Origin: Corynebacterium kalinowskii
GTDB taxonomy: Bacteria > Actinomycetota > Actinomycetes > Mycobacteriales > Mycobacteriaceae
Direction of reading: 5' to 3'
Assembly: GCF_009734385.1 (NCBI RefSeq)
Contig: NZ_CP046452.1
Coordinates: 1,984,001 to 2,048,000 of the forward strand
DNA: 64,000 bases
Each line of letters opens with the position of its first letter. Position 1 is the first letter of the stretch. The notes beneath the pieces were generated by a model. That model worked only from the letters and a program-made list of their open reading frames with translations. It did no database searches and was not told where the DNA came from. The translations under genes and the position numbers were made by a program. This document shows, one piece after another, positions 3,480 through 43,075 of this stretch.

Positions 3480-5792
<2,313 letters not shown>

Positions 5793-5807
5793 CGCGCCGA
5801 CAAAATT

Positions 5808-5860
5808 GGCCCCTAGTTCGGATTCCCACTCAAAGTAAGGATTCGAACTAGGGGCCTTTT
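5808..5860. terminator. Bidirectional terminator between icd and the deacetylase gene
   Basis: Perfect 13-bp arms (GGCCCCTAGTTCG at 5808-5820, its complement at 5844-5856) followed by TTTT on the plus strand and preceded by AAAA. It lies between the convergent stops at 5792 and 5874 and can serve both. Confidence 0.9.
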
Positions 5861-5873
5861 CGGCTTTGCTTAT

Positions 5874-7655
5874 CTACAGTTCCTTTGCTGGTACGAATTC
5901 GTAACCAAGGCCCTCGATGCCGTCAACAATCTCTTCCAAGATCTTGATGTCCAGGAACGGGTGGAAGAAGAAGCTAGCGGTTGCTTCTCGCACCACTGAG
6001 TTCTTTTCCGCATTGCCCACAAGCAGTGAAGGTGGACGCGCCGCGTGGTTATTTAGCATCTGGACTGATGGATTACCGATGTTTTCCGGCAGCACGGTAC
6101 CACCGTAGACATCGCTAACCGAGTACGGCAGGATCTGGGTAAGAGACGTGAAGAAATCCTGGTTCTTTCCGGTGATAAGCCCGGAATAGTAATCGGTTTG
6201 TTCGTAACGGTATTCATAGTTTTGCGCCATCGCCTCGTAGGCGTTGGGGGTGGCGCCGTAGTGTGGCGTTTCGAAGATGTCAGGTTCGCCGAGTCCTGCC
6301 GCAACGAATGCCTGTCGGCCGCGCTCGATACGATCGGCGTGATCGGACACCTCATCATTAATCAGCGGTCCGGTGAGCTGTACCCAGGATTCCTGCTTGC
6401 ACTCTTCAAACACCCACGGCTTCGAGTCTTGGGTGCTACAGCGGGAGCGCAGGAACTCATAGTCGGCAGCGCTGGCAGCACCCGGATATGGGTTTTGCAT
6501 TGCGCCATATTGGTGAGTGGTGCCGTGCTGGATCAAAGTGCCACCCTTTGACTGCATGTATTTCAGCGCCTCGACGACCTTCGGGCGATCCTTGAGCTCT
6601 AGGCCAACGTGTCGATCATCTTTCGGATCCCTCGTTTCTGCCACGTAGAACGGGATGACAGCAACTTGGAACGGCACGTTTCGACTGCCGAGGAAGTCCG
6701 CAACGCGACGAAGGTCATCGGGATTCGACATCGCGCTGACGTCCTCGATACGCACTGCCGCCTTTTGCGTGCGTGGCGCTTCCGGAGCGAGCAGATCGAA
6801 ATACAGGTCAGCGAAGGCTAGGTAGTGAGACCCTTCCTGTTGCCACTCGAAAGGAAGGTCATTTACATAGGTAATGTTCCCAGTGCGAACTGCCCAGGGG
6901 AAGCTCTCCCCTGGCGCGCCAGCACAGGCCTTTGGAGTTTCCTTCGATCCGCAAAGCGCGGTGCCTAGAACCTCGACCTTAGCCGGATCAGTGATTGCAG
7001 GCAGCAACATTTCGCGACTCTTCTCGTGTCGGGAAAGCACCTGTCCCTTGTATTCAATCGCCGTGATTTTGTCTGCGCTGTTGTGCTGAAAGGCATGTGG
7101 ATCAATGCCATATTTTTCAATAAAGGCAGCTTCTTCCGGGGACTCATCCACGCCAGCAAGCTTTTCCAAGTTGCTATTGGCCCATAACACCTTCTTGTCA
7201 CCCTTTAAGATGTCGTCTCTCAGGGCTGCCGGGATTTCTTGGCCATAATCGTATCCCTGATAAATGAGCGCATCGTACTGGTCGATCTGACCGGGTTGGT
7301 AGTCACCAATCGGAAGCACGGAAACCTTACCGAAGTGGGTAGCGAGGTTTCCGGCCAGCATTCCTAGTACCTCGCTGTCGCCGGAAGCGCCGTCGTAAAG
7401 CACCAGCGTGTGCTTGCCGCCATCTTTTCCATAAGTGCTGTCAAAAACAGAACTAGAGTACAAAGGCTCGAGGTCATCCTTGCCCTTGAGCGGGTCGACA
7501 AAACTCTTGGCCACTGGAGAATTCAAACCGGGCTCTGCGTCATCATCAAGTACAAAGAAAACGACCGTCATAGCTGCAATCACGCTCAGGACAGCGATGA
7601 TGGCTAATAAAATCCCAGCTTTTTTACTGCTAGTAGCCATATTGGTCGATTCCAT
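5874..7655 (-). CDS. DUF2334 membrane-anchored polysaccharide deacetylase-like protein
   Basis: A 593-residue protein with one N-terminal membrane anchor (about residues 12-36) and a large extracellular part. The second half (AVRIEDVSAMSNPDDL..., QVAVIPFY, GGTLIQHGTTHQYG, FETPHYGATPNAYEAM) is typical of DUF2334 proteins in the polysaccharide deacetylase superfamily. The paired HG/H and late H residues are candidate metal ligands. GGAG a few bases upstream supports ATG 7655. It is the last gene of a tight four-gene operon with a processive glycosyltransferase, so the likely role is deacetylating or otherwise trimming the exported polymer, as PgaB or IcaB do. The family assignment is firm; the substrate is inferred. 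Confidence 0.82.
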   Translation of the reverse strand: MESTNMATSSKKAGILLAIIAVLSVIAAMTVVFFVLDDDAEPGLNSPVAKSFVDPLKGKDDLEPLYSSSVFDSTYGKDGGKHTLVLYDGASGDSEVLGMLAGNLATHFGKVSVLPIGDYQPGQIDQYDALIYQGYDYGQEIPAALRDDILKGDKKVLWANSNLEKLAGVDESPEEAAFIEKYGIDPHAFQHNSADKITAIEYKGQVLSRHEKSREMLLPAITDPAKVEVLGTALCGSKETPKACAGAPGESFPWAVRTGNITYVNDLPFEWQQEGSHYLAFADLYFDLLAPEAPRTQKAAVRIEDVSAMSNPDDLRRVADFLGSRNVPFQVAVIPFYVAETRDPKDDRHVGLELKDRPKVVEALKYMQSKGGTLIQHGTTHQYGAMQNPYPGAASAADYEFLRSRCSTQDSKPWVFEECKQESWVQLTGPLINDEVSDHADRIERGRQAFVAAGLGEPDIFETPHYGATPNAYEAMAQNYEYRYEQTDYYSGLITGKNQDFFTSLTQILPYSVSDVYGGTVLPENIGNPSVQMLNNHAARPPSLLVGNAEKNSVVREATASFFFHPFLDIKILEEIVDGIEGLGYEFVPAKEL

Positions 7656-30801: not shown

Positions 30802-31566
30802 ATGAAGAAGGTTCTCGGCTGGGTTGCTGCAGTGGTCGCCGCCGCTTTCCTCGTCGCAATCCTGTTGGCACTGTTTGGATACACGGAAGCGCTCACCACA
30901 TTCCTCGGCGGTCTGCTGCTGGTGAGTTTTATGGCCTTTCCAGTCGCCTTCATCGGTGGAATCGCGTACCTGTCACGGCGCAAGAATGAGGCCGAAAAAT
31001 GGACCGACGGCAGAGTCGGTGTGGGTACGGTCCAAAGTTTTAGGCACACTGGCCGATACGGAAACATCCGTACCTACGCCATCAGCATGCTGGTGGAGGG
31101 CGAGGATGGCCAGGTGTTCACCGGCACCATGAACCCACAAGTCGGACGCCGCAACCTGCGAAACCTCGCTCCGGGAGTCCGAATGCCAGTCTGCTACCAA
31201 GCTGCATTCCCACAGCGGCTCCACGTGCCCCATGGGCCATTGATCGGCCGGGCGCAGCTGTTCTATGAATACGTCCGACAGCGCGACGGTCTTATCAGCC
31301 CGACTGCGCTGGAAGCCAAGTACCGTGGACTGCCCTGCCGAGCTACTGTGCAAGGAATCCACCAGAGCGGTTATCGGGAAGGCGCGATGATCCAGTGGAT
31401 CCTGGATCTGCAGGTGTTCACTCCAGACGGCCAGCAATTTCATAGCTCAGCGCGAGTGCTTGCCACGGAAGCCCAGTACGAACTCATTCGGACCGCGCGC
31501 TACTTGGAAGCGAAGTACGCACCGCACGACACCAGCGAAGTTGCCGTCCGAATTCCACCCCAGTAG
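30802..31566 (+). CDS. Membrane protein of the RiPP-like operon, paralogue A
   Basis: A 254-residue protein with two N-terminal membrane helices (about residues 5-27 and 32-58) and a beta-rich soluble domain (WTDGRVGVGTVQSFRHTGRYGNIRTYAISMLVEGEDGQVFTG; LHVPHGPLIGRAQLFYEYVRQRDG). It is clearly paralogous to the next gene over its whole length. The soluble part vaguely recalls DUF3592-type domains but no firm family was recognised. It is the first plus-strand gene after the divergent selO and starts the five-gene run that holds the peptide and radical SAM genes. Function unknown; a membrane partner or immunity role is only a guess. Confidence 0.75.
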   Translation: MKKVLGWVAAVVAAAFLVAILLALFGYTEALTTFLGGLLLVSFMAFPVAFIGGIAYLSRRKNEAEKWTDGRVGVGTVQSFRHTGRYGNIRTYAISMLVEGEDGQVFTGTMNPQVGRRNLRNLAPGVRMPVCYQAAFPQRLHVPHGPLIGRAQLFYEYVRQRDGLISPTALEAKYRGLPCRATVQGIHQSGYREGAMIQWILDLQVFTPDGQQFHSSARVLATEAQYELIRTARYLEAKYAPHDTSEVAVRIPPQ

Positions 31567-31598
31567 CCGACCTGGATAACTTCCAGTAGTTTTTCACT

Positions 31599-32384
31599 AT
31601 GCGCCGGTTTCTAATAGCATTTCTGCAGCTCATGGTGGTTGCAGCCTTCATTCGCTGGTCGGTTTATGTCTTTGCGGTTGACACCAGCGCAGGGGGATTC
31701 TTTACCGAGAACAGTTTGGGCATAGCTTTTGGTATCAGCTTCTTTGCCCTCATTTTTGCTCTTTCTTTCCTCGGCTCGTTGTACCCGACAAACCTCGCCA
31801 AGTATTGGAAAGACGGCAAGGTCGGTGTAGGAGAAGTACAAACATACGAACACCGAGGACTGAAAAATGGGGTGCGTAACTACCGCATCGCTATGCAGGT
31901 GGAGGGAGAAGACGGCGCAGTGTTTGATGGCATTCTCAGTGTTCCAGTTGGCAAGAGGCGGCTCCCGGCGCTACACCAGGGGCAGATCCTGCCAGTGGTC
32001 TACCGAGCCAAAAAGCCTAAGCAGCTGTACGTTCCCCATGGCCCATTGAAAGAACGCGCTCAGCTGTTTTATGACTTCTACTGCCTCCGCACCGGCAGAG
32101 TGGACCAATTGACTCTCAATGCGGGCTATTACGGTCTGCCGGGTCGCGCAGTGATAGCCCAAGAAATGAGTGACGGCCTCGTTTTCCCTGGAAAGGAACG
32201 TTTGCACTTAGATCTCAGCGTGTTCACCCCGGACGGGCACCAGTTCCCTTCCACTGCAACGGTGCTAGTAGATGCATACCAAAAGGATGTCCTTCACCAG
32301 GCGCGTTACCTGGAAGTTAAGTACCTACCGGAAGCCCTTGAAAAGGTTGCCGTCCGTATTCCCAAAGCTCCAAAGGTGGGTTAG
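31599..32384 (+). CDS. Membrane protein of the RiPP-like operon, paralogue B
   Basis: A 261-residue protein with the same layout as its neighbour: two N-terminal helices (about residues 7-27 and 38-62), then YWKDGKVGVGEVQTYEHRGLKNGVRNYRIAMQVEGEDGAVFDG and LYVPHGPLKERAQLFYDFYCLRTGRVDQLTLNAGYYGLPGRA. The two genes align end to end with scattered identity, so the duplication is not recent. It lies 32 bp after paralogue A and 27 bp before the peptide gene, consistent with one transcript. Function unknown. Confidence 0.75.
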   Translation: MRRFLIAFLQLMVVAAFIRWSVYVFAVDTSAGGFFTENSLGIAFGISFFALIFALSFLGSLYPTNLAKYWKDGKVGVGEVQTYEHRGLKNGVRNYRIAMQVEGEDGAVFDGILSVPVGKRRLPALHQGQILPVVYRAKKPKQLYVPHGPLKERAQLFYDFYCLRTGRVDQLTLNAGYYGLPGRAVIAQEMSDGLVFPGKERLHLDLSVFTPDGHQFPSTATVLVDAYQKDVLHQARYLEVKYLPEALEKVAVRIPKAPKVG

Positions 32385-32411
32385 GGTGCCAAGTATAAGG
32401 GAGGAAAAACG

Positions 32412-32639
32412 ATGAACAGTTTCGAGAGTTGGCTCGCCCAGAACAGGCTAGATCAGGCGCTAGCGCAGGGCACCGTTTTCCAGGAAACCATCGGATTCAA
32501 CGACGGCTGGACCGACATCGTCGGCAATGAGCTGCGCACCCGCGGTTGGACTGGCGACGGCAGTGGTGGCGGCGGCGGTTTCTACGGCGGCTCGAACAAC
32601 AATAATAATAACAATAATAACAACAACAATAATGGCTGA
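32412..32639 (+). CDS. Gly/Asn-rich small peptide, candidate RiPP precursor
   Basis: A 75-residue peptide. Residues 1-40 (SFESWLAQNRLDQALAQG, then TVFQETIGFNDGWTDIVGNE) look like a helical leader. The C-terminus is low-complexity: GWTGDGSGGGGGFYGGS followed by 13 Asn and a final Gly. A near-ideal AAGGGAGG lies 7 bp before ATG 32412, suggesting strong translation. Its stop overlaps the start of the radical SAM gene by 8 bp. Small size, leader plus repetitive core and coupling to a SPASM enzyme are the usual signs of a ribosomally made, enzymatically modified peptide. The Trp, Phe and Tyr next to Gly/Asn are plausible crosslink sites. Precursor status is inferred, not shown. Confidence 0.75.
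   Translation: MNSFESWLAQNRLDQALAQGTVFQETIGFNDGWTDIVGNELRTRGWTGDGSGGGGGFYGGSNNNNNNNNNNNNNG
32595..32633 (+). repeat. (AAY)13 trinucleotide repeat coding poly-Asn
   Basis: Thirteen consecutive AAC/AAT codons form a microsatellite at the 3' end of the peptide gene. The next gene's start codon begins at 32632, inside it. Gain or loss of whole triplets would change the Asn count without disturbing the overlap. Confidence 0.9.
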
Positions 32640-34392
32640 CCTGCAGTTATTTCACCAAGCGATCAAGCTGACCTTCGTCCCGAACCAGTATTGCAACTTG
32701 GGATGTAGCTACTGCTACCTCGGCGATCTCACCGAGAACCGAGATACCTACGACGACGTGGTCTCCCAGTTTCACGCTATCGCCCGGCATCTAGAGCACC
32801 AGGGCATTCTCATCGACGCGCTCCTCCTCCACGGCGCCGAAATCTCCCTTCTCCCCCAGCCGGTCCTCCGGGAGCTCTTCCAGGCTTATACGGACTACCG
32901 CGCTCGGTATAAGTCCGAGTTCAAGGCCCTCGGCAAGCGCACCAACAGCCCGATCCACATCAAGACGAACCTGTACAACTTCCACGTCCTTCGCCCACTG
33001 TACGAAGAGTTTCAGGTCTCCATTTCCGGTAGCTTTGACCTCCCTTTTTCGCTGCATGAGGAACTGCGGACCACTAAACAGGGCAAGTCCACTTTGCAAA
33101 GGACACTGGACAATGTTCTGTTGCTCAAGGACTACCCGTACCCGAAAGGCATTAGTTGCGTCGTCGGCAAGCCACATCTACTGCGCATTGACGAATTCAT
33201 CGAGAACATCGAATGGCTCGACGCCCAGGGCTTTGACATGTGCACCGATTTCTACATCATGTTCGCCTATGACAGTGCTAATGCGAACTACAAGTCACAG
33301 CTCACGCAGGAAGAGATGGTTGAATTCCTTAACAGGCTGCGAGAGCACTTCACGGGCACCAAATTCGAGCGCGCCATCTACTACGAGTGGTTCAAGGAAT
33401 TTACCCATGACTACTGCACCAATCAGATCAACTGTGGCACCAACAATTTCCTCGCTCAAAAAGACGGCGATGTGTACCCGTGCCACCGCGGTCAGGCCGA
33501 GCCAGATCTGAAATTCGGGAACATCATCCAGCTGGGCATGCCGGAGCTGGTCGCTTCCGGAGAAAAAACCATCCAGAAGTACGAGGCAGCCAACGAACCA
33601 CTCTCCAAGGAATGCCGCGAATGCCCCTGGTTCTACCTGTGTTACGCCGGCTGCCCCATCGAGCGCAACAACACCCGTGGCAACAAGTCCTACACGTGCG
33701 CGCTCCAGAAGGAACTCTATAAAGCGCAGCCCGACCGCTTCCCGCCGAAACCTGAATTCAGCCGCCGCCAAGTGGATGCCTTCATCCGGCAAAATCAGCC
33801 ACACATCTACGACGACCTCACCGTCCCCCGCCTGATGAACTTCAACCCCGAGCTCCTCGACCCAGCCAATTCTCTCCCCGCCCTCATCCAGCGTGACGAC
33901 GTCCTGCAGGAGATGTTCCGGCCCGGCGCGATCAAGCTCATCGTGAACGGGCAGGCCACGGACCTCTACTCTTCCCACCTGTATGGGCGGATGACACAGG
34001 TGACGTTGTCGCCAGAGGATAGCGTGCATGTGGCCGTCGATAAGCGCTATTGGGCGCTAAACGGCGGCGACCTTGGCAACGCCATCAAAGTGCAGCTGCT
34101 CTCCGATTCGCCGGTGGTGTACGGCGACGAGCAGCGCACCAAGATGAGCCACGTGGCCACGTTCGATGCGTACCCCGCGCAATTGCAGGAGCTTAGCGAC
34201 GCCTGGATCCTCGACCTCACGCCGTTCTTGCGACTGCACGCTGCAAGTTTCCTGCCGGACTTTGGGAATTTGATCTCGGTGACCACCCTGCGAGCGCGGG
34301 AGTACCACTACTCCAAGCACGGCAAGAACGCGTTCTACCACCTGGAGACCATCAATTTGCCGTTCCCGGAGTTTCGGTTTGAGTGGGGATGA
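32632..34392 (+). CDS. Radical SAM/SPASM peptide-modifying enzyme
   Basis: A 586-residue radical SAM protein. CNLGCSYC (Cys 21, 25, 28) is the CxxxCxxC motif that binds the SAM-cleaving 4Fe-4S cluster. A SPASM domain follows with CGTNNFLAQKDGDVYPC, then CRECPWFYLCYAGCP and a last Cys in KSYTC, giving ligands for one or two auxiliary clusters. This arrangement is typical of maturases that crosslink or epimerise RiPP precursors. The last about 190 residues form an extra beta-rich domain with no recognised family. No PqqD-like leader-binding domain was seen. ATG 32632 lies within the preceding peptide gene, so the two are translationally coupled. The substrate is presumably that peptide. Confidence 0.88.
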   Translation: MADLQLFHQAIKLTFVPNQYCNLGCSYCYLGDLTENRDTYDDVVSQFHAIARHLEHQGILIDALLLHGAEISLLPQPVLRELFQAYTDYRARYKSEFKALGKRTNSPIHIKTNLYNFHVLRPLYEEFQVSISGSFDLPFSLHEELRTTKQGKSTLQRTLDNVLLLKDYPYPKGISCVVGKPHLLRIDEFIENIEWLDAQGFDMCTDFYIMFAYDSANANYKSQLTQEEMVEFLNRLREHFTGTKFERAIYYEWFKEFTHDYCTNQINCGTNNFLAQKDGDVYPCHRGQAEPDLKFGNIIQLGMPELVASGEKTIQKYEAANEPLSKECRECPWFYLCYAGCPIERNNTRGNKSYTCALQKELYKAQPDRFPPKPEFSRRQVDAFIRQNQPHIYDDLTVPRLMNFNPELLDPANSLPALIQRDDVLQEMFRPGAIKLIVNGQATDLYSSHLYGRMTQVTLSPEDSVHVAVDKRYWALNGGDLGNAIKVQLLSDSPVVYGDEQRTKMSHVATFDAYPAQLQELSDAWILDLTPFLRLHAASFLPDFGNLISVTTLRAREYHYSKHGKNAFYHLETINLPFPEFRFEWG

Positions 34393-34434
34393 CCTGCACT
34401 TTTGCGAGTAGTATGAAGGGGAGGAGTGATCACG

Positions 34435-35406
34435 ATGAAGAAGTTTCTGAAGGTACTCGGAGCGCTGCTGGGAATCCTGATTTTGCTGGTAGCGATTCTG
34501 TTTGGTGTTAATGCCTACAACCGGCACAAATACGCTGTGCCACCCCTCGGCGAATATCAAACATCCGACCAGATCCAACCAGTTCAGGGCGAGTATCTGA
34601 ACGGTTTCCACTTCACCCCTACAGACAAGCGACACAAAGGCGTTGTGGTTACTTTCGGAGGCTCCGAAGGCTCCCCTGATTACGGCCGGGCGAAGCAACT
34701 GTGGGAGGAAGGCTACGAAGTCTACGCCCTGTTCTTCTTCGGTCAGCCGAATCAGAAAGAATCCCTTGCCGAGGTTCCACTGGAGTTCTTTGACGAGGTC
34801 ACTGCCCTCATCCCAGAAGGTCCGGTCACTGTGATCGGCACGTCCAAAGGTGCCGAGCTGGTGGCGAATCTGGCGGCACGGGGCGCCAAGATCGATCACA
34901 TCGTGCTGTACACCCCGACGGAGTACACCTACCAGGGCCTCGCCTATGGCAAAAAGGAGATGTCCTCGTTCGCCAAGGACGGGCAGCCGATCCCATACCT
35001 GTCTTTTAGGAACTCAGAGCCAGGAGCATCGATGAAGATGTTCCTGGATATGATGCTGGGCTTGCCGATCCGTTACCGCGAAACATACTCCACCATCCCC
35101 GCACGCGCCGACAACACTGCCGAGGCCCGCATCCCGATTGAGAACTTCCAAGGCAACGGGCTGGTCTTCGCAGGCGATCAGGACGCCATGTGGCAGGGCG
35201 AGGTGGCAGCGCGTGGGCTCGCCGAGCGTAACCCACGACTAGAAGCTCACGTCTACCCCGACGCTGGCCACATGTTCTCCGAGGACATCACCGAATTCGG
35301 ACGAAGCTGGGAGAAGATGTTCGGCGGGACTGTGGAAGGCAACCGCGCAGCCAAACAAGACTCGGAGCGGGTGCTGATGGACAAACTCGCCACCTGGCAC
35401 CGCTGA
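34435..35406 (+). CDS. Membrane-anchored alpha/beta hydrolase (BAAT/acyl-CoA thioester hydrolase-like)
   Basis: A 323-residue protein with one N-terminal membrane helix (residues 5-27) and an alpha/beta hydrolase domain outside or at the membrane. The nucleophile elbow is GTSKG (Ser 137), with a likely acid in FAGDQDAMW and His 279 in DAGHMF. The fold resembles the C-terminal hydrolase domain of bile-acid-CoA:amino acid N-acyltransferase-like proteins. GGAGGAG before ATG 34435 fixes the start. It follows the radical SAM gene by 42 bp and may act on the modified peptide or on a lipid; this is inferred. The CRISPR locus begins 25 bp after its stop. Confidence 0.8.
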   Translation: MKKFLKVLGALLGILILLVAILFGVNAYNRHKYAVPPLGEYQTSDQIQPVQGEYLNGFHFTPTDKRHKGVVVTFGGSEGSPDYGRAKQLWEEGYEVYALFFFGQPNQKESLAEVPLEFFDEVTALIPEGPVTVIGTSKGAELVANLAARGAKIDHIVLYTPTEYTYQGLAYGKKEMSSFAKDGQPIPYLSFRNSEPGASMKMFLDMMLGLPIRYRETYSTIPARADNTAEARIPIENFQGNGLVFAGDQDAMWQGEVAARGLAERNPRLEAHVYPDAGHMFSEDITEFGRSWEKMFGGTVEGNRAAKQDSERVLMDKLATWHR

Positions 35407-35432: not shown

Positions 35433-38414
35433 CTGGGGTTCAACTCTCAAAACCCCTGATAGACTTCTGCTCCGGCAAAGGGTCTGCGACGTACCGCTGG
35501 GGTTCAACTCTCAAAACCCCTGATAGACTTCTTTGAAGCCAGCGCCATTCCTCCTCGGCGCTGGGGTTCAACTCTCAAAACCCCTGATAGACTTCAGATC
35601 GATGCACTACAGAAGACCTTCATGCTGGGGTTCAACTCTCAAAACCACTGATAGACTTCTCGTTCCCGCGTTGCTTGCCGACAATATGCTGGGGTTCAAC
35701 TCTCAAAACCCCTGATAGACTTCGACGCAGGCCAGAGGCGGTTAACGTGTTGCTGGGGTTCAACTCTCAAAACCCCTGATAGACTTCGGCGCGCTGTTCC
35801 TGCAAGCGTTTGTTAGCTGGGGTTCAACTCTCAAAACCCCTGATAGACTTCTCCCGCCCACCACTCGGCTTGATTTCCAGCTGGGGTTCAACTCTCAAAC
35901 CCCCTGATAGACTTCCGTCGGGGAATACATCATCGACTTCGAAGCTGGGGTTCAACTCTCAAAACCCCTGATAGACTTCTCCGAAATCGTGCGGTCACCA
36001 TGCCCACGCTGGGGTTCAACTCTCAAAACCCCTGATAGACTTCGCGGAAGCCGGGCGTGACGACGCGGAAAGCTGGGGTTCAACTCTCAAAACCCCTGAT
36101 AGACTTCGGCATGGGCAAAACCATCATCACGCTCAGCTGGGGTTCAACTCTCAAAACCCCTGATAGACTTCCCGACGTATTCAATCCCCGCGACCTGTTG
36201 CTGGGGTTCAACTCTCAAAACCCCTGATAGACTTCCACGCCGAGGCATGAAGCGTCGTGAGCGGCTGGGGTTCAACTCTCAAAACCCCTGATAGACTTCC
36301 AGGCTTCGACAACGACACAAAGGCAGAGCTGGGGTTCAACTCTCAAAACCCCTGATAGACTTCGCGGGGTGGGGCTTTGACTTGGCTGACCAGCTGGGGT
36401 TCAACTCTCAAAACCCCTGATAGACTTCCTCTTCGGCCTGCTCGTTGACGCTGCGAGCTGGGGTTCAACTCTCAAAACCCCTGATAGACTTCCGAACCCT
36501 AAACGGACTAGTTCACGCTGGCTGGGGTTCAACTCTCAAAACCCCTGATAGACTTCCAGGAACCAGGGAAGGAACCCACCATGAGCTGGGGTTCAACTCT
36601 CAAAACCCCTGATAGACTTCTCATGGAACCGGTCAACCTCTCGGAGAAGCTGGGGTTCAACTCTCAAAACCCCTGATAGACTTCAGTACCGCAACATCGA
36701 CCCGCTGAAGATGCTGGGGTTCAACTCTCAAAACCCCTGATAGACTTCTGCTGCACCCACACCCCACGGCCACAGGGCTGGGGTTCAACTCTCAAAACCC
36801 CTGATAGACTTCTGTCGACGGGGCGGTTGTGGCGTGTGGGGCTGGGGTTCAACTCTCAAAACCCCTGATAGACTTCAATACGTCTGGGGGTCACTCGCTG
36901 CCAAGCTGGGGTTCAACTCTCAAAACCCCTGATAGACTTCTCTTGTTCCGCTTAGTACGCGCGTCGGAGCTGGGGTTCAACTCTCAAAACCCCTGATAGA
37001 CTTCGCACCCGAAAGGACAGTGGAAAATAAATGCTGGGGTTCAACTCTCAAAACCCCTGATAGACTTCGTGGGAGAGTGACAGGCATAACCGGGCTGCTG
37101 GGGTTCAACTCTCAAAACCCCTGATAGACTTCTGGACGGGTTGGAATAGTTGTCAGTCCAGGCTGGGGTTCAACTCTCAAAACCCCTGATAGACTTCAGG
37201 AACATAAGGGTCAGCACCGTCAAGGGCTGGGGTTCAACTCTCAAAACCCCTGATAGACTTCGGTCTTGTTGTGGCGCTCCCATTGCTTGGCTGGGGTTCA
37301 ACTCTCAAAACCCCTGATAGACTTCGGGGGCACCTTATGGCCACGCGAATTTAGCTGGGGTTCAACTCTCAAAACCCCTGATAGACTTCTGTGTCTTGGA
37401 TGCGTTGTTGGCGCTCTGCTGGGGTTCAACTCTCAAAACCCCTGATAGACTTCTGCTGCCATATGCCCCCTATGTTCCATGGCTGGGGTTCAACTCTCAA
37501 AACCCCTGATAGACTTCGCGAAAAGCCTACCGAGATGGAGTACTAGCTGGGGTTCAACTCTCAAAACCCCTGATAGACTTCTTGTCCGACCTGTCACCGA
37601 CGAGCGAGAGCTGGGGTTCAACTCTCAAAACCCCTGATAGACTTCGATGGCACGCGTACCCATGAGCTGGCTTGCTGGGGTTCAACTCTCAAAACCCCTG
37701 ATAGACTTCACCACATAATCCGCGATCAGTTGCTGACGCTGGGGTTCAACTCTCAAAACCCCTGATAGACTTCACAGCATTAACTACCCACTCGGCCTTA
37801 TGCTGGGGTTCAACTCTCAAAACCCCTGATAGACTTCTTGCGGGTCACCAGGCCACCACAACTCAGCTGGGGTTCAACTCTCAAAACCCCTGATAGACTT
37901 CTCCGATCCCGAATGAAATCATCCGTGACGCTGGGGTTCAACTCTCAAAACCCCTGATAGACTTCCAGGTGGTGATGCGGGCGTCGTCTTTCAGCTGGGG
38001 TTCAACTCTCAAAACCCCTGATAGACTTCCAACAAGTCCAGACACCCCGAGTTGATCAGCTGGGGTTCAACTCTCAAAACCCCTGATAGACTTCAACTCG
38101 AGCCCGTACGCATGACCGCGACGCTGGGGTTCAACTCTCAAAACCCCTGATAGACTTCCTAGTTGGCGCGATAAGGCATCGCGTAAGCTGGGGTTCAACT
38201 CTCAAAACCCCTGATAGACTTCTGAGCGGGGCGATCCGTGAACGGAAGTTGCTGGGGTTCAACTCTCAAAACCCCTGATAGACTTCACAACGGATGACTT
38301 CATCTTGTCGAAAGGCTGGGGTTCAACTCTCAAAACCCCTGATAGACTTCCGACCGACAAGCACGAAACCTACGAGCCGCTGGGGTTCAACTCTCAAAAC
38401 CCCTGATAGACTTC
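35432..38414 (+). CRISPR. Type II-C CRISPR array, 47 repeats and 46 spacers
   Basis: The 36-bp repeat begins GCTGGGGTTCAAC and ends CCCCTGATAGACTTC. Repeats start every 64 bp from 35432 to 38379. Spacers are 28 bp except three of 29 bp (before the repeats at 36393, 37162 and 38059). Variant repeats are the first (C for G at base 1), fourth (35624, C to A at base 24) and eighth (35880, A to C at base 21); all others look identical. The plus-strand repeat has the crRNA sense, because the tracrRNA anti-repeat near 43050 is complementary to it and because it resembles the C. diphtheriae Cas9 repeat. Its 3' part, TGATAGACT, resembles an extended -10 element, as in other II-C arrays with repeat-internal promoters. 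Confidence 0.98.
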
Positions 38415-38415
38415 A

Positions 38416-38437
38416 GCATGCCCCAAAACGGGCATGC
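38416..38437. terminator. Hairpin directly after the last CRISPR repeat
   Basis: A perfect 8-bp stem, GCATGCCC and GGGCATGC, around the loop CAAAAC, one base after the last repeat and 27 bp from the cas2 stop. It could end array transcription on the plus strand, cas transcription on the minus strand, or mark the leader. No long U run follows on either strand. Confidence 0.5.
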
Positions 38438-38464
38438 AAGCTGGCATTTCTCTACTTTCTCACG

Positions 38465-38800
38465 CTAGAAAATCATCAACTGTGCAGGCATTTCCTCCTG
38501 CTCGGTCGGTGCCGCATTAGAAAATCGAATCGCTTTCGCCCATTGATTGTCTGTCAAAGTAACAATGCGAATGTCTCCGCCTTCAGGCAAGCAAGATTTC
38601 ACGGTCTTAACGACACTTGAGAGTCTTGACGCCATGGGAAGATATTGCACATAGACACTAAACTGCGCCATTGAAAATCCTTGATCTAGCAATGCATTCC
38701 GAAATACTGTTGCCGCTTTCCGCTGGGGATTCGTCTTTACTGGCAAATCAAACATCACAAGACACCACATTGGCTGATCCTCATCCGTTCGCTTACCCAT
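38465..38800 (-). CDS. cas2: CRISPR-associated endoribonuclease Cas2
   Basis: A 111-residue Cas2 with the ferredoxin-like start WCLVMFDLPVKTNPQRKAATVFRNALLDQGFSMAQFSVYVQYL; the Asp in FDLP is the conserved acidic residue. It structures the Cas1-Cas2 integrase that inserts new spacers. ATG 38800 overlaps the cas1 stop by one base. Last gene of cas9-cas1-cas2, a three-gene set that defines type II-C. Confidence 0.96.
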   Translation of the reverse strand: MGKRTDEDQPMWCLVMFDLPVKTNPQRKAATVFRNALLDQGFSMAQFSVYVQYLPMASRLSSVVKTVKSCLPEGGDIRIVTLTDNQWAKAIRFSNAAPTEQEEMPAQLMIF

Positions 38801-39693
38801 TAGATACTCCAGTGAGTTACTTCAAATCTCTGCCGATTTCCTTCGACGTATAGCCCGAATTCCTGTGCTAGCTCGATCAAACTTGTTGGGATTGACTCTC
38901 CCGTTTTCTTAAACTGTTGATTTACCGCATCGACTAGTAGAGCTTTCGTTTCCCTCACTGCCGGGTCGAACTGCCGTACATTTGAAAGTACGAAATGATC
39001 CACTGCAGGTCGGAAAGGCTCGATCAGGTCATCTGCTAGAGCAAAAGGGTTCGATCGACCTCGGTGAAAAATTCCAAGTGGACCGCTCAGACCACCCGAA
39101 ATTACCGCACGAACCGCATGTCCTCGAAGAACGGTGTAGGCATAATCCAAGCAAGAATTGAGCCCTTGATCACCAGCACCTGGTTCTCGCCGAAATCCTT
39201 CCTCTAAGTTGATAGATGCCCAATAAAGCTTTGCAGCGACGGCTTCTCGATTGGTGGTATCGCCGGATCTCACTTCATTGGCTATTCGATTCAACTCCTG
39301 AGAGTTTTCGCAATGAAGTCTTTCAAGAGTATTCGCCTGCCCCAAAATCTTTGCTCGAACGGTCTGCTGCCAAGCTGATTTCTTTCGAGGCAGGCTTAAA
39401 CCTGCCTGTGCTCGGTGCCTTGCTCCGACTCTCGTGTGTTCGGCCCAAGGCATCGTTCCCGCTATCGGTATACCTCTCCAATCACATACGAGCAATACGA
39501 CATCATATTCGGCCAGTTTGGCCAGTACTGCCCCACTAACACTTGTCTGAATACCGACCAGAACTACGGCCAACTGTGCCAATGGCAAGTCACTAATCAC
39601 TTCAGATTCCTTAACCAATTTGATATGACCGCGCACATATCGGATTGATCCTTCGAACCCTGAAAGATCGATGACTTGCCAGCCGGGATTCAT
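38800..39693 (-). CDS. cas1: CRISPR-associated endonuclease/integrase Cas1
   Basis: A 297-residue Cas1. Metal ligands are recognisable as Glu 150 (NREAVAAKLYW), His 210 (GIFHRGRSNP) and Asp 222 in FALADDLIEPFRP. It catalyses spacer integration with Cas2. It starts four bases after the cas9 stop and overlaps cas2, so the three genes form one transcript. No csn2 or cas4 is present. Confidence 0.96.
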   Translation of the reverse strand: MNPGWQVIDLSGFEGSIRYVRGHIKLVKESEVISDLPLAQLAVVLVGIQTSVSGAVLAKLAEYDVVLLVCDWRGIPIAGTMPWAEHTRVGARHRAQAGLSLPRKKSAWQQTVRAKILGQANTLERLHCENSQELNRIANEVRSGDTTNREAVAAKLYWASINLEEGFRREPGAGDQGLNSCLDYAYTVLRGHAVRAVISGGLSGPLGIFHRGRSNPFALADDLIEPFRPAVDHFVLSNVRQFDPAVRETKALLVDAVNQQFKKTGESIPTSLIELAQEFGLYVEGNRQRFEVTHWSI

Positions 39694-39697
39694 CTGC

Positions 39698-42600
39698 CTA
39701 GGCTTTCCAACTCACTGGAAGGTGCGCAGCGGATTCCAAACGAACGCGGCCAAGCGAATCGCGTCTGATGACTACCGCTTTTCCGTCACCGAAGACTTTG
39801 TTGATTGCGGGAAGCCAACCAGTAGTATCGAGAACTTTCCTGACATCGCTAACGGCATCATCTTTCAGCCCTTCTGCACTAAAAAGACGTGGTCGCAGGC
39901 GAAGTCGGGAATTGCTAAAGAATCCATCCAAGTTCCAGCTCGTGATCTCTCCGAGCTGTTCCTGAGCTGCTCCAATCTGTCCAGTATTGAAGGTCGCCAT
40001 ATCCACTTGAATTTCATCATCAACGACCAACCATCCTAGGTACTCTGCAGTCCCATCTTCCAAGGCCTTACGCAGCTTAGGCTCCGATTGGCGCACACTC
40101 ATTGTTTGTAGTGGAATTTCCACGGAGAACAAATCGTCATTACGGAATCTTGCCAAATCTGCGGTGTAGACACGCATCATTGCAAAAGCAGTTTTCTTCC
40201 CTGAAGGAACTCGGTAGACACGTGCATGGTGCATTGATCTTCCGAGTTCAACGTATCCGCCTCGAACTGCAATCGCTCCGGCAGAAACCGGGAAGAATTC
40301 GATTTCATCGTCGGCGTTCAAGTACCGGTTCCCAACCCGAATTGTTCGTTCTGGGTTGGCTGGAAGTCCGTCCTTCTTGTCAAAGTCTGGGCATCGAGTC
40401 AATGCGCACCACAAGGCTTCGCTAGCAGCTTTGTCGATGTCCGCAATACTCATCGCATCACCAACTAGCTTCTTCGTGAGCTTGCCTACCGTGTCTTCAT
40501 GGACAGCACCGTTGCCAAGTCGCAGTCGCAGGTTGTGCGTGACTGGAATCCTATCTTCTTCCAGGTAAACTTGGAGCATTGCTCCCAGGCGCTTCATCGA
40601 ACTAAGCCACTTGTTGTAGCGAATCTGGTGGTTAGTGCTCGTACCAGTGAATTCTTTCCACTGCTCTGCCTCTCGCCTGTGTCGCTGTGCCTCTTTTAGG
40701 TTGACTCGCAACGCCAACACTTCAGCAACTGTCCGACTCATCATCGCAATCACCGCTGCATCAATGGCATGGTGACGGCGGTCAAGACGAGATTTTCCTA
40801 CGCCATCCGCGAAACGAAGGTTTCCGGAGATCCCAGATGCCCTACGAGCCTCTGCAGTTAGGCTGCCTTTGTACACGTTTACAGTAGTATCTGCAGAATT
40901 CGCCGAGCTTCCACCAAACTTCTGTTGAACTCGAGCACGTAGCTCATTGGCCATCCAAGCAACCGGCTCAATGGAGCGAGCATCAAACTCTTCGTCGAAT
41001 GTCCGTTGCTTGAGACGTTGCGCAACTCGCGACTTAAACTGCGCGAAATCCCGAGTCGTCAATCCTGGATCAACTAACCAATGATTGAGCCGTTCCAGTG
41101 CTTCAGCAACACTAACTCCAGGAATTGCACTTTTCTCCGCCCACAATACAAACGGCGTGTTGGATTTAGAGTGATTGCATCTCTTACATACGGCCAACAA
41201 GTTCTCACGCGTATTTGTGGAACCCATGCCTGCTCGAGGAACGATGTGGTCCATCTCGCAGGTTTTGAAATCAATCGGCTGACCACAGTATGCACACTGT
41301 CCATTTTGACGCTGGATTGACTGGAATCGCCATAGATCAGCGCTCCGTGGGCGCCCCTCGATTCCAAGCCTTGCCTGCATTTCCGAAACGATCTCTAGAT
41401 TTCTTTTGCCGCGTTTCTCCATTTCTCGATCTAGCTGACGAGACATCGCTTCACTGAGGAAACCGCTACGGACGTTTTCAATATTGATTACAGAAGGAGC
41501 ACCCCACTCGGATTCCGCGGCATTGAGCCAACGCGCAACCGCTTTGAGCACTCGGTCTACTGCGGGATTTCCTACAGGCTCAGCGATATCAGGTGCAGGC
41601 GGAGCCCAGTCGTTTGGAACATCAAACTCAAGTTTGCGTGCTTCGTACAGGTCGATTCCATCATTCAGCATGCGATCAGTCAGGCGTTCCAGGGTGGATT
41701 CTGAGTAAGCTGCGCGCCCAAGCGGTAGACGTAGCGAATCTAGCTTCTCATGATCGGAATCTTCCAAACTCTCGAAAAAAGCTTGGACGGAACTGCCCGA
41801 CTCGGTGTCAAAGTCAAAAGATTCGCTGTTCGACAAAGCTTTTAGCATTGCTCTGTGATCCTCATCGGAAGCGGTCTTCCACCAGCTTGACAGTGGCTTG
41901 AGCTTGGATGAGAGAATGCTCCGATTTGTGTCATGAACTGGAGGACGCGCACCAGCCCGCTCTCCATCGTCAGTGATCGTGGCGGTACCGAGCAAGCTGC
42001 CCCGATCGATCCCGAGGATTTCAGCTACGTTGATCCATTCCGGTTCCATCTTCGGAGCAAGGTTGACCAGGTAGTCGAACACAACTCGGCGTTGTTCGAT
42101 CGAAAGGGGTGCTTTTGCGCTTCCCTCCCTAATCCGGAGATTGCCGATCAGGGCAGCTATGCGGTATCGCTGAAACGCATCCGATGCCTTCAATGCTCGT
42201 GGCAAATGCGGTTGGAGGGGATCTTTGCCCACACGTCCTGAAGCAGAGCCCTTGGGGGACTCGGCAGAAAAAACAAGGGAAACGAGCTTTCGAGCGATTT
42301 CGTGGTCAACTCCCTGGGCGTCGAAGATCGTCCACAGCTCATTTGCGTGGTCAGACTGCATGAGTCTTGCAGAAAGCAGACCACCCTCACCTCGGAGCCT
42401 TGCGTTGCCCAGCGCACTTGCAGCAACAATTTGCCCGACAGTTGCATCCTCAGGGATTGGATAACCAATTGCCTTGCTGATATTTGTCCGAATCTCAATC
42501 AGCTGTGCGCTAGGCTCTGTTCGTGCCATTAAGGACTCGACCTTCGAGTATGGATTACGCCATCCTCGGTGACGTGCAATGTGTCGCAAAGCAATGGAGA

Positions 42601-42973
42601 GTTTCTCCTGCATTTCAGAAGCGTCAGCGATTCGTCCTTGGGCGAGCTCTGCGCGCACCTTCCACGGTAGAAAAGGATCCGAATACACTTCGAACGCCTT
42701 CACAGGCCAACCAAGGCCCTCAAGATACTTGTCAAGCTTTTGGAGTCGCTTCTTCTTGCGTCGGAACATTCTCCGAGTTCGTCGAGCGATGCCAGACACT
42801 GCGAGTCTTGTGTCGGCCTTCTTGTTACTGTCGGGATCAATACCCGAATCATGGATGTGTGAAACGAGATTCAAGATCTCGGTTGGTGCGCCATTGTCAT
42901 CCAAAGCAATGGCAGCAAATCCAACTGAGTGAGTTCCGACATCAATGCCTACTGCATAGTTTATGCGTTCCAC
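39698..42973 (-). CDS. cas9: CRISPR-associated endonuclease Cas9, type II-C
   Basis: RNA-guided DNA nuclease of 1091 residues, close to C. diphtheriae Cas9 (1084). RuvC-I is YAVGIDVGTHSVGF (Asp 11). The Arg-rich bridge helix is GIARRTRRMFRRKKKRLQKLD. The HNH domain carries CAYCGQPIDFKTCEMDHIVPRAG with a second CKRC pair, and RuvC-III is RLDRRHHAIDAAVIA. All catalytic residues appear intact. The frame is open to 43021, but that part is the tracrRNA terminator. GTG 42973 is chosen because AAGGTGG lies 5 bp upstream. GC content looks lower than in flanking genes, in keeping with acquisition by transfer. Confidence 0.97.
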   Translation of the reverse strand: MERINYAVGIDVGTHSVGFAAIALDDNGAPTEILNLVSHIHDSGIDPDSNKKADTRLAVSGIARRTRRMFRRKKKRLQKLDKYLEGLGWPVKAFEVYSDPFLPWKVRAELAQGRIADASEMQEKLSIALRHIARHRGWRNPYSKVESLMARTEPSAQLIEIRTNISKAIGYPIPEDATVGQIVAASALGNARLRGEGGLLSARLMQSDHANELWTIFDAQGVDHEIARKLVSLVFSAESPKGSASGRVGKDPLQPHLPRALKASDAFQRYRIAALIGNLRIREGSAKAPLSIEQRRVVFDYLVNLAPKMEPEWINVAEILGIDRGSLLGTATITDDGERAGARPPVHDTNRSILSSKLKPLSSWWKTASDEDHRAMLKALSNSESFDFDTESGSSVQAFFESLEDSDHEKLDSLRLPLGRAAYSESTLERLTDRMLNDGIDLYEARKLEFDVPNDWAPPAPDIAEPVGNPAVDRVLKAVARWLNAAESEWGAPSVINIENVRSGFLSEAMSRQLDREMEKRGKRNLEIVSEMQARLGIEGRPRSADLWRFQSIQRQNGQCAYCGQPIDFKTCEMDHIVPRAGMGSTNTRENLLAVCKRCNHSKSNTPFVLWAEKSAIPGVSVAEALERLNHWLVDPGLTTRDFAQFKSRVAQRLKQRTFDEEFDARSIEPVAWMANELRARVQQKFGGSSANSADTTVNVYKGSLTAEARRASGISGNLRFADGVGKSRLDRRHHAIDAAVIAMMSRTVAEVLALRVNLKEAQRHRREAEQWKEFTGTSTNHQIRYNKWLSSMKRLGAMLQVYLEEDRIPVTHNLRLRLGNGAVHEDTVGKLTKKLVGDAMSIADIDKAASEALWCALTRCPDFDKKDGLPANPERTIRVGNRYLNADDEIEFFPVSAGAIAVRGGYVELGRSMHHARVYRVPSGKKTAFAMMRVYTADLARFRNDDLFSVEIPLQTMSVRQSEPKLRKALEDGTAEYLGWLVVDDEIQVDMATFNTGQIGAAQEQLGEITSWNLDGFFSNSRLRLRPRLFSAEGLKDDAVSDVRKVLDTTGWLPAINKVFGDGKAVVIRRDSLGRVRLESAAHLPVSWKA

Positions 42974-42992
42974 GAAAGCCACCTTAGGTATT

Positions 42993-43075
42993 AAAAAAGC
43001 CGGCTTACGCCGGCGGAGCATTCAACGCCAGAAACGTGCTGGCGCTTACTGAGGTTCAACTCTGGTTTAAATGAT
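42993..43075 (-). ncRNA. tracrRNA
   Basis: Read on the minus strand, AGAGTTGAACC-T-CAG (about 43063-43049) is the anti-repeat that pairs with the 5' part of the CRISPR repeat. It is followed by AAGCGCCAGCACG and TTTCTGGCG, which form a nexus-like hairpin, then AATGCTCC and the terminator hairpin GCCGGC-GTAA-GCCGGC with six T (43014-42993). Order and several blocks match the known C. diphtheriae tracrRNA. The 5' end is uncertain: the promoter at 43099-43071 would start it near 43064, while pairing of CTATCA with the repeat would need a longer form. Confidence 0.85.

Follow-up and report, generated by a model that had tools for sequence, protein, structure and literature searches.

Radical S-adenosylmethionine (SAM) enzymes with a SPASM domain form the closest described systems to the one discussed here. 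Among them, the anaerobic sulfatase maturase (anSME) oxidises Ser or Cys, and the dynobactin maturase DynA acts on a precursor that is unlike the peptides described below. The present analysis concerns a stretch of 64,000 nucleotides from Corynebacterium kalinowskii (contig NZ_CP046452.1, positions 1,984,001 to 2,048,000), referred to as the window; its source genome is a single contig of 2.51 Mb. Within a run of plus-strand genes, it encodes a 75-residue peptide ending in thirteen Asn residues and a Gly, followed by a radical SAM/SPASM enzyme. Sequence comparison makes it likely that this enzyme belongs to a family of the ribosomally synthesised and post-translationally modified peptide (RiPP) type that modifies C-terminal oligo-Asn tails, the peptide being its substrate.

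DynA (NF041298) is the top curated model for the window enzyme, at 89.8 bits, and the two share the radical SAM and SPASM parts. However, the model cut-off of 450 is missed, and the match falls short of the C-terminal domain of the window enzyme. The latter differs from anSMEcpe (4k36-4k39) in this extra C-terminal domain, in its partner, and in a TIGR03942 score of 83.4 bits against a cut-off of 349.45. ChlB, solved with the ChlA leader (9gm3, 9gmc), is 16% identical, and the match stops at model residue 371. In PHROGs v4, the only family that matches nearly the full length, C-terminal domain included, is phrog_1802, a ‘radical SAM domain-containing protein’. No function is attached to it, and no paper was found that links it to Asn tails.

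Another kind of likeness is seen with the nitrilobacillins. According to the excerpted text of the paper describing them, their RiPP precursor also has a C-terminal Asn, which is the site of modification: an asparagine-synthetase-like enzyme converts its C-terminal carboxylate to a nitrile; the excerpt mentions neither an oligo-Asn run nor a radical SAM pathway enzyme (PMC13060819). A literature search, with slight coverage of subscription journals, returned no paper that by its title or the start of its abstract dealt with Asn-tail RiPPs or with this enzyme acting on a tail fibre. We know of no RiPP class that has an Asn homopolymer tail as its substrate.

Pairing of the enzyme with an Asn tail in actinobacteria

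The peptide gene lies at 32412..32639 on the plus strand. Its product carries an F-x-[EQ]-[ST]...G-W region and a Gly/Ser linker, and ends in GGGGGFYGGS-N13-G, as the original prediction had described. The Ser-Asn13-Gly tail, our proposed modification site, occupies 32592..32636 on the same strand and is written in mixed AAC and AAT codons. The peptide gene shares 8 bp with the beginning of the enzyme gene (32632..34392, plus strand, 586 residues). The enzyme reading frame is also open upstream across the Asn run (32527-32631), where it reads as Thr and Ile codons; the same open frame was seen in L009, L010 and L011, the window being the fourth locus inspected.

When 242 Corynebacterium genomes were searched with an enzyme profile (A2), ten matched at E 1e-10 or better, eight of them substantially. 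Outside these eight are G455, which holds a relic of 70 positions, and G483, whose match of 45.5 bits is weak and covers only some of the SPASM region. Likewise not counted were weak matches from other genera, in a search where 7 of 401 genomes matched, 2 of them strongly. A separate search for the tail pattern (AAY)5-GGN-TRR gave one match each in eight of the 242 genomes, the window genome included, and these are the same eight that hold the enzyme. With uniform bases, about 0.14 matches would be expected by chance in the whole set, and the control pattern, read backwards, had none in the 242 genomes. The probability of such an overlap is 4e-15 if the genomes are independent; as they are related, this is a measure of fit and not a p-value. 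In all eight, the Asn-tailed peptide is encoded directly upstream of the enzyme.

The eight Corynebacterium peptides are 58-111 residues long, with a run of 5 to 14 Asn followed by Gly. The F...G-W region and the tail are common to the seven that were aligned, the eighth (G464) being nearly identical to the C. amycolatum copy. The terminal Gly is retained even where the tail does not overlap the enzyme start. The window peptide has no match in NCBIfam or PHROGs and only matches below cut-off in Pfam, and six further partners have none in NCBIfam. Across 11 actinobacterial loci, the 126 tail Asn codons comprise 75 AAC and 51 AAT, and not one AAA or AAG codon for Lys. This mixture without Lys codons argues for selection on the Asn residue rather than for a simple DNA repeat.

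A scan of the phylum with phrog_1802 matched 378 of 396 genomes but tells little, since any SPASM enzyme is picked up by positions 1-400 of the model. Among the matches listed, with few candidates scored per genome, only those of the window and of one further genome (G872) extended past model position 540. A profile of the C-terminal domain alone (A7) matched 3 of 396 genomes in the class of G872, which is called another class here on the strength of its kinship label, ‘same phylum’. In the family of G872, this profile was found in 3 of 138 genomes and the tail pattern in 3 of 138, and they are the same three genomes. There, the partner is encoded 3' of the enzyme gene; it has 125-158 residues, its N-terminal region is conserved and includes a single hydrophobic stretch, and it ends in Thr, 13, 11 or 9 Asn, and Gly. 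When profiles of the two partner groups were compared, they aligned only over the Asn-Gly tail and, weakly, over a short segment preceding it. The tail is proposed as the site because it is the sole clear feature that the partner groups have in common.

A genetically linked precursor peptide, which is a criterion for a RiPP, was thus found in every one of the eight Corynebacterium genomes and in all three of the other class. The original prediction had held the peptide to be the substrate and had named relatives of the enzyme consistently lacking a peptide gene as the finding that would speak against it. No such lack was met with among these actinobacterial loci, and the proposal comes out strengthened to likely.

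The enzyme family and its C-terminal domain

The 586-residue enzyme with its CNLGCSYC motif had been read as a radical SAM/SPASM protein, and both assignments hold above cut-off: TIGR04085 (SPASM domain) gave 50.2 bits (cut-off 27), and in Pfam, where nothing else passed, Radical_SAM gave 31.5 bits (29.5) and SPASM 25.3 (21.5). Among seven aligned relatives, the Cys residues of the CX3CX2C cluster motif (C21, C25 and C28) are invariant, as are eight others (C262, C268, C284, C328, C331, C337, C341 and C356). By analogy with anSME, those of the SPASM region presumably serve two auxiliary clusters. The ratio of non-synonymous to synonymous substitution rates (dN/dS) is 0.17 for the pair L010/L016 and 0.28 for the nearly identical pair L009/L066, which differs in six codons only. 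Together with the 11 invariant Cys, these ratios show the enzyme to be under constraint.

The family is marked by a C-terminal domain of about 220 residues (33712..34389, plus strand), in which YG-E-R-K--H and TT---R--HY-K---N--YH----N-PF are invariant. In a structure model, residues 9-371 adopt a fold resembling peptide-modifying SPASM enzymes. No structural match was listed beyond about residue 398, in a comparison that barely probed the parts outside 7-371. The C-terminal domain is modelled as mainly beta, with helices, and its profile found nothing better than E 0.15 among solved structures. A winged helix was considered for it and set aside, the matches to DNA-binding response regulators reaching only E 0.15-0.19 and the model being mainly beta with helices. 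An oxygenase domain of the HExxH type was rejected as well, the motif occurring in none of eight relatives.

No equivalog cut-off in NCBIfam was reached by any of four enzymes tested, among the 25 best rows of each. With the window enzyme first, DynA scored 89.8, 66.1, 87.8 and 88.3 bits (cut-off 450), and TIGR03942 83.4, 82.0, 79.9 and 82.8 bits (cut-off 349.45). All curated-model matches of the window enzyme end at or before residue 365, short of the C-terminal domain. The earlier statement that no nameable RiPP class fits is borne out, the best curated models lying far under their cut-offs. The best reading of these comparisons is that the family is undescribed, being absent from the curated models among the rows compared. 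A role in defence was also considered and rejected, as the PADLOC models matched none of the five proteins at E 0.001.

Asn-rich ends of phage tail fibres

Relatives of the enzyme also occur in phages. A tblastn search found a full-length relative, 40.8% identical, in a plasmid record of Campylobacter coli (one of three records listed) and likewise in the Campylobacter phage CAM-P21 (one of six listed); the remaining matches were shorter, at 22-34% identity. Both copies lie inside tail modules. Viral contigs added 12 more Campylobacter-type records and a further phage contig (L024). Where the gene order could be seen, it runs from a fibre gene through a protein of about 210 residues, phrog_10241 in the C. 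coli copy, to the enzyme. Along the 556 positions of phrog_1802, the window enzyme covers 45-551 (168.9 bits, E 4.1e-49), that of the Campylobacter phage 42-556 (475.2 bits) and that of L024 43-546 (170.3 bits), PHROGs giving no cut-off. Viral contigs scanned with the enzyme of the other actinobacterial class had no match. The lytic Campylobacter phages CP220 and CPt10 are known to encode 11 and 12 radical SAM proteins, as the excerpted text of their description states (PMC2853527). Neither phage was among the matches listed by tblastn with the C. coli enzyme.

The protein in the fibre position has an Asn-rich C-terminus in 14 of 14 Campylobacter-type records: NNNNY in nine (L025-L032, L085), GNNF in three (L033, L035, L096), GNNS in one (L034) and CNNNNN in one (L095). 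The remainder of these proteins differs among the records. The start of the protein does not resemble the C. coli fibre in L032, L034 and L035, so that ‘fibre’ is said there by position; L034 has weak tail-fibre profile matches as well. Homologous fibres from records without a listed enzyme match served as a control (PC10, one CGC-2007 record and three Helicobacter prophages; 5 of 287 records). None of the five has an Asn-rich end; they end in FMELR, FIRYS or LEFS. The control fibre is followed by a gene annotated as DUF4376 in PC10 and in the H. apodemus prophage, by one that Pfam assigns to DUF4376 in CGC-2007, and by an unnamed one in both H. pullorum prophages.

It was also observed that related phages appear to have exchanged cassettes here. 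L025-L035, L085, L095 and L096 hold a fibre end, the gene for the protein of about 210 residues and the radical SAM gene, as opposed to a fibre end and the DUF4376 gene in L081, L082 and L084.

The gene run, the proposed mechanism and its alternatives

The original prediction had placed the peptide and the enzyme in a run of five plus-strand genes with gaps of 32, 27, -8 and 42 bp, and its coordinates and gaps are exact. Upstream of the peptide lie two membrane proteins, of 254 (30802..31566) and 261 residues (31599..32384), the latter with N-terminal hydrophobic segments followed by a soluble region; that they are paralogues agrees with their 44% identity on alignment. By alignment, a related membrane protein precedes the peptide in four Corynebacterium loci, of which the window is one, and as judged by eye it does so in three more, the counts covering seven of the eight loci (without G496). 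The only profile lead is DUF3592, at 18.7 bits under a cut-off of 25.3, in the C. amycolatum copy alone. By eye, no membrane protein of this type was seen in the loci of the other class. The suggestion that these proteins handle or sense the product is partly supported.

The fifth gene encodes a membrane-anchored alpha/beta hydrolase of 323 residues (34435..35406, plus strand; an in-frame GTG start also exists at 34426) with a BAAT_C match of 32.0 bits (Pfam cut-off 20.9). It had been proposed to handle or sense the product, a role that comparison does not support. Among the Corynebacterium neighbourhoods, inspected by eye and not by profile, the window was the sole case in which it adjoins the enzyme. 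The corresponding locus of G455 (L068 5457-9681) still has a hydrolase of 71% identity next to the C-terminal enzyme relic, with no match to the peptide pattern; the two loci also have nearby genes in common, which we take to be SelO-like and transporter genes. The hydrolase is thus unlikely to be part of the pathway and is probably a bystander. Further on, at about 35440-38400, there is an array of repeats of the CRISPR (clustered regularly interspaced short palindromic repeats) type, within 35440-43021. The minus-strand proteins 3' of the array are presumably Cas2-like (38465-38800), Cas1-like (38800-39693) and Cas9-like (39698-43021, 1107 residues).

The data show the gene order, the enzyme family, the co-occurrence and the conservation of the tail; from these we infer the substrate relation, the site, the chemistry and the role of the membrane proteins alike. 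The peptide would be co-produced with the enzyme through the overlapping stop and start. The enzyme may bind the N-terminal part of the peptide, probably near F-x-[EQ]-[ST]...G-W and aided by its own C-terminal domain, and would act by C-H activation on the oligo-Asn tail, working its way along it step by step. The likeliest chemistry, itself a guess, is that each event removes two hydrogens at an Asn carbon, leaving either a desaturation or a cross-link formed through the amide of a neighbouring side chain or of the backbone. For the membrane proteins of Corynebacterium, a role in anchoring, exporting or sensing the product is possible. Beyond this genus, enzymes of the family would modify the partners in the other class and the C-termini of certain phage tail fibres. 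It is quite possible, and is advanced here tentatively, that the ‘Asn tail’ is a transferable module, one radical SAM family modifying otherwise unrelated proteins, namely small Corynebacterium peptides, proteins with one hydrophobic stretch in the other class and Campylobacter-type fibre tips.

Several observations weigh against such a family acting on Asn tails. The gene can be lost: its frame is broken in two of the eight Corynebacterium genomes (C. suicordis and G496) and in two of the 14 phage records (L034 and L096), and the tail persists in both broken-enzyme genomes, with 13 Asn in C. suicordis and 5, the shortest run, in G496. The distribution is patchy (8/242 and 3/138), and, as the genomes and phages are related and many of the phages nearly identical, the counts are not those of independent events. 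L024, whose enzyme is 40% identical, has no Asn-tailed partner in the stretch examined, and the single (AAY)4 match in its 96.8-kb record does not fall in any frame longer than 60 codons that has an Asn run. Conversely, L080 encodes a phage protein of 456 residues ending in LNNNNNNNNG (4617-5987, minus strand), yet its record, at 22 kb perhaps incomplete, had no enzyme match. The GNNF and GNNS fibres have two Asn only and are weak evidence when taken alone. No protease or exporter was recognised in the operon, or elsewhere among neighbours inspected by eye.

Among the other explanations, the next candidate for the chemistry is an epimerisation of Asn to D-Asn, which would leave a tail of alternating L- and D-Asn that is helical or ladder-forming. 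It appears unlikely, since two auxiliary clusters favour an oxidative outcome, be it a cross-link or a desaturation. It is more doubtful still that the modified residue is a different one, namely the Ser or Thr before the run or an upstream aromatic or Gly residue, and that the Asn run serves only as a tag for recognition or spacing. Ser or Thr precedes the run in 10 of the 11 actinobacterial loci (the exception being G496) and in the NNNNY fibres, and the high-scoring models and the closest fold include the anaerobic sulfatase maturase. However, the GNNF, GNNS and CNNNNN ends have no Ser or Thr directly before the run, TIGR03942 reaches 83.4 bits only against its 349.45, and it is the Asn residues that are under the strongest constraint.

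That the enzyme is an ordinary member of a known RiPP family is very improbable. Such families include DynA, darobactin, PapB, the cyclophane type and enzymes fusing radical SAM to an alpha-ketoglutarate-HExxH domain, the last reportedly forming cyclophanes and hydroxylating. The window enzyme does score with DynA (89.8 bits), PapB (61.5) and AmcB (49.6), but the respective cut-offs of 450, 340 and 425 were reached by none of the four enzymes in their 25 best rows, the matches stop by residue 365, before the C-terminal domain, HExxH is missing from all eight relatives, and most actinobacterial tails lack an aromatic residue. Least credence of all is given to the Asn run being a by-product of translational coupling or of a DNA repeat, with the peptide not a substrate. 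The run does sit at the enzyme start in Corynebacterium, and the four loci inspected all have the enzyme frame open across it. Yet AAC and AAT alternate without Lys codons, the run lies 3' of the enzyme gene in the other class, and Asn ends are also found on phage fibres two genes away. A mere DNA repeat was rejected on the codon pattern together with this reversed gene order.

For the modification of Asn tails by one enzyme family, the two-way co-occurrence provides a search rule, which combines a C-terminal Asn run with the C-terminal domain of the enzyme. If the phage side of the proposal is true, this would be the first case known to us of a phage tail fibre matured by a radical SAM enzyme. 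The phages would then be modifying the tip of the adsorption fibre chemically, and tail-fibre specificity would be read differently from sequence.

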